Position numbers and translations under genes: made by a program. The notes beneath the pieces are model-generated. The model was not told the origin of the DNA. It was given only the letters and a program-made list of their open reading frames with translations, and searched no databases. From Nitrospinota bacterium (lineage in GTDB: Bacteria; Nitrospinota_A; UBA7883; JACRGQ01): a stretch of 37,205 nucleotides of DNA. Every line of letters begins with the position of its first letter. Position 1 is the first letter of the stretch. The stretch spans positions 1 to 37,205 of the forward strand of contig JACQEX010000065.1 in the NCBI GenBank assembly GCA_016200345.1, written 5' to 3'. Of the stretch, positions 5,525-26,339 are shown piece by piece.

Positions 5525-6932
5525 AACTCGGGTTGAGAACGACTCCATGGGGCCGATGACGGTTCCCTTCGACGCCTACCACGGGGCTAGCACCGCCCGG
5601 TCTTTGGCAAACTTTCAAATAAGCCCGTTGAGGCTTTTCCCGGAACAGATTCACGCGATGGTTGCGCTTAAACTCGCGTGCGCGAAGGCCAACATGGAGC
5701 TTGGGCTACTTCCGAAACGAAAAGGGGACGCGATTATTAGGGCGTGCCGCGAGGTGCGCGCCGGGCGGTTCGACGCGGAGTTTGGGCTGGATGTTTTTCA
5801 AAGCGGCTCAGGCACCTCCACAAACATGAACGTGAACGAGGTGGTGGCGAACCGCGCCTCCGAATTGCTGGGCGGCAGGCGCGGGAGCAAGAGGGTGCAC
5901 CCCAACGACGACGTAAACATGGGGCAGTCCACCAACAACATATTCCCCTCCTCCATCCGCGTGGCGGCGACGCCGCTTTTGCTGACGCTGATAAAGGCGG
6001 CGGAAAACTTTTCTAAAACGCTGGCGCAAAAGGGGAAAGAATTCGACCGCGTGATAAAATCCGGAAGAACCCATTTGCAGGACGCCGTGCCAATAAGGAT
6101 GGGGCAGGTTTTCAACGCGTTCTCGCGCTCGATACGAAAGGACGCGGAAAGGCTTCGGCTCAAAATCCGCCACGTTTCGGAACTCGGGGCCGGTGGTAAC
6201 GCCGTCGGCACCGGCATAAACACCCATCCGTCCTTTAGAAAACGGATAATCAAAAATCTCAACGCGGAGCTCGGTTCCAAAATGTTCCGCGTGGCCCCGG
6301 ACGGGGTGGAGGCGACGCACAGCACAAACGATCTGGCAGACCTTTCGGGGGCGGTGCAAACGCTTGCCGTGGACGTTGCGAGAATATGCAACGACATTAG
6401 GCTGATGGCCTCCGGGCCGCTGACCGGCCTGAACGAACTGCGCCTGCCGCCGGTGGAGCCAGGCTCCTCCATCATGCCGGGAAAAATCAACCCCTCCATC
6501 TGCGAGGCGGTCAACATGGCCTGCCTTCGGGTGTTTGGAAACCACCACACCGTCACGCTTTCGGCGATGTCGGCGCAGTTGGAGCTTAACGTAACGATGC
6601 CGGTTACGGCCTACGCGCTATTGGAGTCGCTAAAAATTATGGCGTCCGCCGTGGCGACGCTGGACGAAAAATGCGTGGCGGGCCTAGAGGCGAACAAGGA
6701 ACAGTGCATGGCGTACGCGATGGCAAGCCCCAGCCTTGCGACCTTTCTCAACCCCGTCATCGGCTACGAGAAGTCGGCATCCATCGTAAAAAAGGCGCTT
6801 GCCGAGAAAAAGACGATTCCGCAGGTGGTTCTGGAGCAGGGGATTTTGACGAAAGAGGAGTTAAGAATAATTTTTGACCCGGCGCGGCTCACCTCGCCCG
6901 AAATTTACAAAAAAGGTAAAATAGACCGATGA
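5511..6932 (+). CDS. fumC: class II fumarate hydratase (fumarase C)
   Basis: SGSGTSTNMNVNEVVANRA, GRTHLQDAVP and the superfamily signature GSSIMPGKINP. Confidence 0.9.
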   Translation: MNNRKTRVENDSMGPMTVPFDAYHGASTARSLANFQISPLRLFPEQIHAMVALKLACAKANMELGLLPKRKGDAIIRACREVRAGRFDAEFGLDVFQSGSGTSTNMNVNEVVANRASELLGGRRGSKRVHPNDDVNMGQSTNNIFPSSIRVAATPLLLTLIKAAENFSKTLAQKGKEFDRVIKSGRTHLQDAVPIRMGQVFNAFSRSIRKDAERLRLKIRHVSELGAGGNAVGTGINTHPSFRKRIIKNLNAELGSKMFRVAPDGVEATHSTNDLADLSGAVQTLAVDVARICNDIRLMASGPLTGLNELRLPPVEPGSSIMPGKINPSICEAVNMACLRVFGNHHTVTLSAMSAQLELNVTMPVTAYALLESLKIMASAVATLDEKCVAGLEANKEQCMAYAMASPSLATFLNPVIGYEKSASIVKKALAEKKTIPQVVLEQGILTKEELRIIFDPARLTSPEIYKKGKIDR

Positions 6933-20645: not shown

Positions 20646-20722
20646 GCGCCCGTAGCTCAACTGGATAGAGCGACTGACTTCGGATCAGTAGGTTGGGGGT
20701 TCGAACCCCTCCGGGCGCACCA
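20646..20722 (+). tRNA. tRNA-Arg (anticodon UCG), CCA encoded
   Basis: GCGCCCG acceptor pairs with CGGGCGC; anticodon stem ACTGA-CTTCGGA-TCAGT (anticodon TCG); T-arm GGGGGTTCGAACCCC. Confidence 0.97.
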
Positions 20723-20744
20723 TTTTGTGATTAGGTATTGGTAC

Positions 20745-20922
20745 GCCCGGAGGGGTTCGAAAGACGCTTTCCGGGCGCGAGCTGGCGAGCGACAATGGAC
20801 ACGACGTCCATTGAGGAAAGCGGTCGGGGCCGAGCCCGGAGGGGTTCGAAAGACGCTTTCCGGGCGCGAGCTGGCGAGCGACAATGGACACGACGTCCAT
20901 TGAGGAAAGCGGTCGGGGCCGA
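20745..20922. repeat. perfect 89-bp tandem duplication carrying an inverted copy of the tRNA-Arg 3' end
   Basis: 20745-20833 and 20834-20922 read as identical; CGCCCGGAGGGGTTCGAA (20744-20761) is the exact reverse complement of tRNA bases 20700-20717. Confidence 0.95.
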
Positions 20923-21007
20923 TGGAGCCGAACACGATGTTCGGCGAGAGTGGCCGAACCCCCTCGAATCGTAAAAATTGTTGGTTTAAATAAATGGAGT
21001 TTGAACA

Positions 21008-21559
21008 ATGAAATTATTCCATAGAATTTTAACGTTAACGATCCTTCTTTCGTCCGCCGGAGTTCTGCAGACGGCGCACGCCGGGACATGCACCCCCGCG
21101 CAGGTTGAAAAGCTGGTGGACAAAGGTTTTTCCAAGGAAGAGATAAAGGATTTGTGCGGAACGCAAAAACCCGCCGCCCCCGCCGAACCGGCCCGGTTTA
21201 CCGACAACAAAGACGGCACCGTGACCGACAACACGACCGGACTAATGTGGCAAAAAAAGGACGACGGGCACAGCAAAAGCTGGGGCAAGGCGTCCGAATA
21301 TTGCAAGGGGCTTACACTGGCAGGCCAAAAGGACTGGAGCCTGCCGTCAAAGGAGGAATTGGAGACGCTGTTGTCCGAGGAGGCGAAAAAGGAGGGGAGG
21401 TCTTTTTTTGCCATCGGAGAGACCTTCCCGTACTGGTCTTCCACGCCCGGCAAGGGAAACTCCCACTACGCCCTGCCATCCTCGCTTAACAACGGAATCG
21501 TAAGTTACTACGGGGCGGAGGGGGGCACCTACGCGCGTTGTGCTCGGCGCCATCAGTAA
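21008..21559 (+). CDS. DUF1566 (Lcl C-terminal-like) secreted protein
   Basis: Signal peptide; FTDNKDGTVTDNTTGLMWQKKDDG…GKASEYCKGLTLAGQKDWSLPSKEELETL and C-terminal YARCAR are diagnostic. Confidence 0.88.
   Translation: MKLFHRILTLTILLSSAGVLQTAHAGTCTPAQVEKLVDKGFSKEEIKDLCGTQKPAAPAEPARFTDNKDGTVTDNTTGLMWQKKDDGHSKSWGKASEYCKGLTLAGQKDWSLPSKEELETLLSEEAKKEGRSFFAIGETFPYWSSTPGKGNSHYALPSSLNNGIVSYYGAEGGTYARCARRHQ

Positions 21560-26126: not shown

Positions 26127-26339
<213 letters not shown>

Follow-up and report, generated by a model that had tools for sequence, protein, structure and literature searches.

A family of folded, gene-free DNA cassettes, probably mobile, in the T-loop of tRNA and tmRNA genes of Nitrospinota

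A tandem repeat behind tRNA-Arg(UCG)

What are the two identical repeats that follow a bacterial tRNA-Arg(UCG) gene, each beginning with an inverted copy of that tRNA's own 3' end? They lie in the window, the whole 37,205-nucleotide stretch of Nitrospinota DNA analysed here, and an earlier note, made from the letters alone, had read them as a tRNA-derived, SINE-like mobile or amplifying palindromic repeat, or else as a structure affecting tRNA 3' processing or termination. Our analysis indicates that the repeat probably belongs, as a decayed copy, to a family of folded mobile DNA cassettes, non-coding and about 200 bp long, whose insertion point in tRNA and tmRNA genes is the T-loop, between nucleotides 56 and 57.

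Both 89-bp units behind tRNA-Arg(UCG) are present and 100% identical (20745–20833 and 20834–20922), and every hairpin listed in the note was found. The first inverted copy of the tRNA 3' end exceeds the 18 nt noted (23 nt, 96%, including CCA; 20700–20722 against 20739–20761), and the second is 17 nt long (100%). As a repeat the 89-bp unit is real, but it is only the first half of the element, duplicated in tandem. Two parts went unmentioned in the note: the stretch 3' of the second unit (20917–20971) belongs to the element and holds a third domain, P3, and a direct copy of the 3' strand of the tRNA T-arm is also present, worn in the window. The features are as follows.

20646–20722, plus strand: tRNA-Arg(UCG) (ARAGORN, Rfam)
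20703–20722, plus strand: left copy of the duplicated tRNA 3' end; T-loop nt 57 is 20703, a boundary taken from the direct-repeat analysis
20739–20761, minus strand: inverted tRNA 3'-end copy spanning T-loop to CCA; P1 helix arm of the first unit
20745–20833, plus strand: first 89-bp unit, with inverted arm and P2 domain (hairpins H1 and H2), without P3 and without the direct copy
20834–20922, plus strand: second 89-bp unit, which runs on into P3 and so gives a complete element
20834–20850, minus strand: inverted T-arm copy, 5' arm of P1 in the complete element (by scoring against its own tRNA)
20854–20911, plus strand: P2 domain, stem 20854–20861/20904–20911 around H1 and H2 (inverted-repeat matches, covariation)
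20862–20880, plus strand: H1, with a tandem G.A motif, within P2
20882–20902, plus strand: H2, within P2, CAATGGAC-ACGAC-GTCCATTG
20917–20955, plus strand: P3 domain, GGCC-GATGGA-GCCGAACA-CGA-TGTTCGGC-GAGAGT-GGCC
20955–20971, plus strand: direct tRNA 3'-end copy, worn, CGAACCCC(C)TC..., which forms the 3' arm of P1 and the right limit of the insertion

The arm at 20739–20761 scores 20.5 against its own tRNA and on average 7.5 against other tRNAs. A covariance model of the element matches 20840–20963 (E 2.1e-18, model E-values being rough), the strand folds far more stably than its shuffles (z = −6.8), and an Rfam scan of the region returned the tRNA as its sole match. P3 is the best conserved motif of the family.

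The 89-bp tandem is a local duplication, since its first unit has neither P3 nor a direct copy. This internal duplication and the worn right end, whose counterparts in relatives are intact (20–21 nt, perfect), mark the window copy as decayed. It is among the weaker family members and the oddest of them, the 89-bp duplication being known from a single contig.

Long reverse-strand open reading frames at 20657–21089, ending in VRPEGFEPPTY or RRGSNPQPTDPKSVALSS, are the tRNA read backwards, a common annotation artefact. Elsewhere in the window (26271–26313), a 12-bp tandem repeat (AAAGAAGAGAAG, 3.6 copies) lies in a small lysine/glutamate-rich open reading frame.

Distribution across tRNA genes and genomes

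When DNA downstream of tRNA-Arg(UCG) was searched against the assembly containing the window (2.24 Mb in 113 contigs), two more places came up, behind tRNA-Glu(CUC) and tRNA-Gln(CUG), each with an inverted T-arm copy and a direct 3'-end copy of its own tRNA (the direct copy worn at Gln). When all 39 tRNA genes of this genome were read, about 15 were followed by elements of a common plan (Val, Asp, Met, fMet, Asn, Ala, two Glu, Gln, Leu, two Ser, Arg, Gly, and Thr); remnants were found at about five further tRNA genes, and about half had none. A scan of the same genome for the pattern TTCRANNCC was uninformative.

The covariance model (R1; matches counted at E ≤ 0.01) found the element in all 11 searched genomes of the family (Nitrospinales; seven genera, 3–22 matches per genome) and in none of 13 other genomes of the phylum. 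An exact-pattern scan for the P3 motif across 85,462 species genomes gave four matches, among them one further true copy, behind tRNA-Arg in Patescibacteria UBA3531; in a sample of 384 genomes of that phylum, the model matched in one. Known carriers of the element so far are a single family of Nitrospinota and a single Patescibacteria genome. Two other loci from the motif scan (L099 and L101) were rejected as chance, with no model match to speak of and no tRNA. Adjoining the Patescibacteria tRNA-Arg, a tRNA-Gly has a second, different structured element of the common plan, unmatched by the model (L100, ~5900–6200, minus strand). BLAST of the region against plasmids returned the tRNA as sole match, and the element body alone matched nothing among phages or plasmids.

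Of 126 distinct copies, 105 follow a tRNA (26 species) or tmRNA (six copies) on the same strand at a distance of 20–408 nt, and none of the 126 is on the strand opposite to the tRNA or tmRNA. Most of the remaining 21 are at contig ends. Four of these that were read (L115, L063, L097, and L152) stand behind orphan tRNA 3' fragments (Glu, Gly, Glu, and Ala, respectively), each probably marking the distal end of a genomic island, and an integrase gene lies about 240 bp from L115. One copy (genome G000, contig C98) retains the arms and flank of tRNA-Arg(UCU), a gene sited elsewhere.

The note's proposal of a mobile or amplifying palindromic repeat tied to tRNAs is supported by copies behind 26 tRNA species and tmRNA in 11 genomes, with empty and filled sites. 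Copies elsewhere without any tRNA-derived segment would have spoken against it; nearly all copies have one.

At another locus of G000 (contig C104, L085), a tRNA-Ala(GGC) is broken at the T-loop, so that ..GGGGTTCG runs directly into an element; its 3' half and terminator are missing, and the next unit retains both. The break looks like a hairpin deletion between the tRNA end and the inverted arm, or an intron-like insertion.

Element anatomy and conserved fold

The element is gene-free, about 200 bp in size, and is arranged as tRNA, spacer, inverted T-arm copy, P2 (with H1 and H2), P3, and direct tRNA copy. The inverted arm comprises T-loop nucleotides 54–60, the 3' strand of the T-stem and sometimes the acceptor, the direct arm is the tRNA from nt 57 to CCA, and the pairing of the two forms P1. 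The P2 stem encloses H1, with its tandem G.A steps, and H2, and P3 is either GGCC-GATGGA-stem-GAGAGT-GGCC or of a second type. The spacer often contains a terminator-like hairpin; with a T-tract, it separates tRNA and element in 57 of 89 first copies, which argues against the suggested effect on tRNA 3' processing or termination.

Covariation supports the fold. In an alignment of nine sequences, 31 of 40 pairs changed on both sides (score 0.635 vs 0.200 ± 0.024 shuffled), and slid-alignment controls collapsed to about 0.1; in 69 sequences, an alignment made by the model and hence biased toward it, 38 of 40 pairs were two-sided (0.632 vs 0.183 shuffled). Outside P1, pairs other than Watson–Crick are rare (G.T 41 and A.C 20 of 2118 cells). 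The unpaired motifs GATGGA/GAGAGT and tandem GA are conserved. A reading of the CAGGAUG loops as CsrA sites was dropped because loops also read CACGACG and CGUGAUG.

Rfam cmscan, in gathering and E-value modes, gave tRNA/tmRNA-type and sub-threshold matches only and no described family; the element DNA did not match rtT, and the element body had no tRNA match. The label "tRNA-derived, SINE-like" therefore does not hold for the body, which is not tRNA; only the two arms are tRNA-like, and these correspond to the tRNA targeted in each case.

Many copies have been truncated or have taken up other repeats. Other small palindromic repeats, of the GTACGCCGTAAAGGAGAT..CTCCGGCA type, lie inside hairpins or arms of tRNA elements (L012, L033, L047, L020, L007, and L017).

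Insertion site and target duplication

The left boundary of the duplication is exact: the direct repeat mostly starts precisely at nt 57 (+0), and the base preceding it is C in 38 of 43 cases. It ends 0–40 nt or more past CCA, and the 3' end of the element abuts nt 57. The remark in the earlier note that an integrase att duplication would be direct, not inverted, was correct, and a direct copy is present as well.

Filled and empty sites occur as differences between related species. In genus g6, G006 has an element at tRNA-Asp and G008 has an empty site there. The flank of the empty site corresponds to the DNA that follows the right (direct) copy, whereas the left flank agrees for only about 11 nt beyond CCA. 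The same pattern, less clean, is seen at tRNA-Val(UAC) (empty in G009, filled in G006 and G008) and tRNA-Arg(UCU) (empty in G008 and G010, filled in G006). As the ancestral flank follows the right copy, the tRNA 3' end in use is the new copy; native flank is duplicated at Asp and Val. Filled and empty sites with target duplication, as a mobile element should leave, are thus both found.

In some copies, among them the one at tRNA-Arg(UCU) of G006, the new CCA is followed by a terminator that the empty-site flank lacks. This counts against the insertion account given here, as entire units specific to one tRNA may also travel through ordinary site-specific recombination.

Arms that follow the target

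Both arms read as tRNA T-arm sequence and fit the tRNA at which they stand: the inverted arm scores 11.1 against its own tRNA and 6.6 against other tRNAs, the direct arm 13.4 against 5.7. Orthologous loci in one genus have bodies about 90% identical, and many bodies have their closest relative at a different tRNA. We compared 29 pairs, partly non-independent, in which bodies alike by 80% or more stand at different tRNAs. The inverted arm fitted its own tRNA in 56 of 58 cases and the partner's in none, with two ties; the direct arm fitted its own in 57, the partner's in one, with no ties. Since the arms of alike bodies fit their own tRNAs, these comparisons indicate that the body moves between tRNAs and that its ends are rewritten from the new target.

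A possible mechanism and its rivals

The comparisons above show a body set at T-loop 56|57, with part of the target duplicated and an inverted arm taken from it. Insertion duplicates target nt 57–CCA plus 0 to about 40 nt of flank. This restores a full tRNA 3' end upstream, leaving the old end as the right end of the element, and the rebuilt tRNA gene should remain functional.

As a tentative account, deduced throughout, we propose replicative insertion of single-strand DNA at T-loop 56|57. A trans-acting nuclease/strand-transferase would bind the folded single-stranded body (P2/P3), the T-loop would be cut at 56|57, and the 3' end of the body (..GGC/GCC) would be joined to G57. From the free 3' end at C56, synthesis along the target would renew the tRNA 3' end and flank; the growing strand would then fold back, in many cases where the terminator palindrome lies, make a reverse copy of the T-arm and join the body. 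The fold-back copying is a guess from the product. One step would yield tRNA, flank, inverted T-arm, body, and direct T-arm, and the window copy would have undergone its 89-bp tandem duplication and right-end erosion afterwards. The strict Watson–Crick stems and the terminator-like hairpins in the spacer favour action at the DNA over the RNA level; against this, G.T exceeds A.C 2:1 outside P1, which selection at the RNA level would also produce. Among the reverse transcriptase, integrase and RAYT genes examined in carrier genomes, no dedicated mobilising enzyme could be tied to the element.

An RNA-level function would make the element a structured RNA gene or a cis-element of the tRNA 3' trailer (processing, attenuation, or decoy), its arms matching because pairing with the tRNA is needed. 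It would suit the strong covariation, the unpaired motifs that are conserved, the constant orientation towards the tRNA and the slight G.T excess, but we consider it rather unlikely, given the patchy presence among species of one genus with empty sites, bodies that jump between unrelated tRNAs, the 57 of 89 first copies beyond a terminator-like hairpin, the many truncated or invaded copies, and the lack of an Rfam family match. The multi-contig state of the family genomes, with copies at some contig ends, could hint at an assembly artefact; this is scarcely credible for independent assemblies from seven genera in which the arms differ and match each genome's own tRNAs. Retrotransposition, in which element RNA is reverse-transcribed at a T-loop nick, would give through target priming both a variable-length duplication with one exact boundary and an element 3' end at nt 57, and through snap-back the inverted arm; with reverse transcriptase (PF00078) absent in 10 of the 11 element-bearing family genomes, it is improbable.

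Two DNA-level alternatives to strand transfer with fold-back copying are each unlikely, though worth weighing. The direct T-loop-to-CCA repeat that restores the tRNA, the tandem units, some with their own terminator, and the use of the same tRNAs by genuine integrase islands would fit tyrosine-integrase att products, that is, minimal integrative cassettes with the tRNA 3' end as att core, in an integron-like array with the tRNA as attI. An att copy, however, leaves the inverted arm unexplained, bodies stand at different tRNAs with both arms changed, native flank is duplicated (Asp, Val), and, among family carriers, PF00589 matches are fewest in G000, G001, G005, G007, and G008 (only two each, probably XerC/XerD), with one in the element-bearing CPR genome. 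Small palindromic non-coding repeats and Y1_Tnp matches in 11 of 11 family genomes would agree with a REP-like repeat whose spread depends on a RAYT (HUH/Y1) transposase. Yet Y1 also occurs in 7 of the 13 genomes of the phylum without the element and gave no match in the CPR genome that carries it, REPs occur beyond tRNA ends, the RAYT loci of G000 show no covariance-model match, and the two of them read on both flanks (C74 and C42) have their own GTAG palindromes.

These RAYT-type Y1 transposase genes and their flanking GTAG palindromes (L174 on C74, L175 on C42) are separate REP families of G000. A Y1-like gene beside tRNA-Ser(cga) on G000 contig C62 was considered as an autonomous copy and rejected: it follows an ordinary HEAT-repeat-like gene and merely abuts an element remnant.

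Relation to known systems

The 3' ends of tRNA genes are classic landing sites of bacterial mobile DNA; to our knowledge, the known mobile users of these ends carry genes and a fixed att site. Like tyrosine-integrase elements, the present insert is flanked by a direct tRNA 3'-end repeat that restores the tRNA. It differs in being about 200 bp and gene-free, with no integrase of its own, in having an inverted arm too, in using many tRNA species, and in arms that change with the target while the body stays and moves between tRNAs, in place of a fixed att core.

The E. coli tyrT tandem repeats (rtT RNA) are short, follow a tRNA gene and include a copy of its 3' end. They share these traits with the element but are known from a single locus and with a direct copy only, whereas the element occupies many loci and has an inverted copy also. 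SINEs derived from tRNA are short, non-coding, dispersed, and tRNA-linked; the element, in contrast, lacks a tRNA-derived, reverse-transcribed body, resides in hosts of which 10 of 11 have no reverse transcriptase, and inserts at tRNA genes rather than deriving from one.

REP/REPIN sequences with RAYTs are small non-coding palindromic repeats, several per genome, proposed to be non-autonomous mobile DNA that forms ssDNA hairpins (PMC3116915, PMC8266576). The element resembles them in being small, non-coding, palindromic, several per genome, and able to form such hairpins, but is larger and multi-helix, lies in one orientation behind tRNA/tmRNA 3' ends and has target-matched arms; it is neither a short palindrome headed by GTAG/CGTC and dispersed extragenically nor, at the RAYT loci of G000, one that flanks a cognate RAYT. 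Integron cassettes have in attC a folded site of variable sequence and conserved structure, are inserted at a fixed place and form tandem arrays (PMC2727003). The element shares these traits but is gene-free, uses the tRNA T-loop as its site and has arms that follow the target; PF00589 gave only two matches in G000, probably XerC/XerD, and no integron integrase was identified there.

We found no description of such an element in the open-access literature or Rfam and, judged against these, the family is undescribed. It is quite possible, if short of our firm expectation, that it represents a new class of mobile DNA that writes both terminal arms, inverted and direct, from the target tRNA by replicative T-loop strand transfer and fold-back copying, driven by an enzyme so far unconnected with mobility.

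Implications

For annotation, element loci call for caution, as they yield spurious tRNA-antisense open reading frames and mimic att sites. For the biology of the family, gene-free folded units stand behind nearly half of one genome's tRNA genes and behind tmRNA, apparently leaving the tRNA intact and taking their ends from the target. This implies an insertion chemistry that we did not find described in the open-access literature, and the natural pairs of filled and empty sites offer ready material with which to test it.
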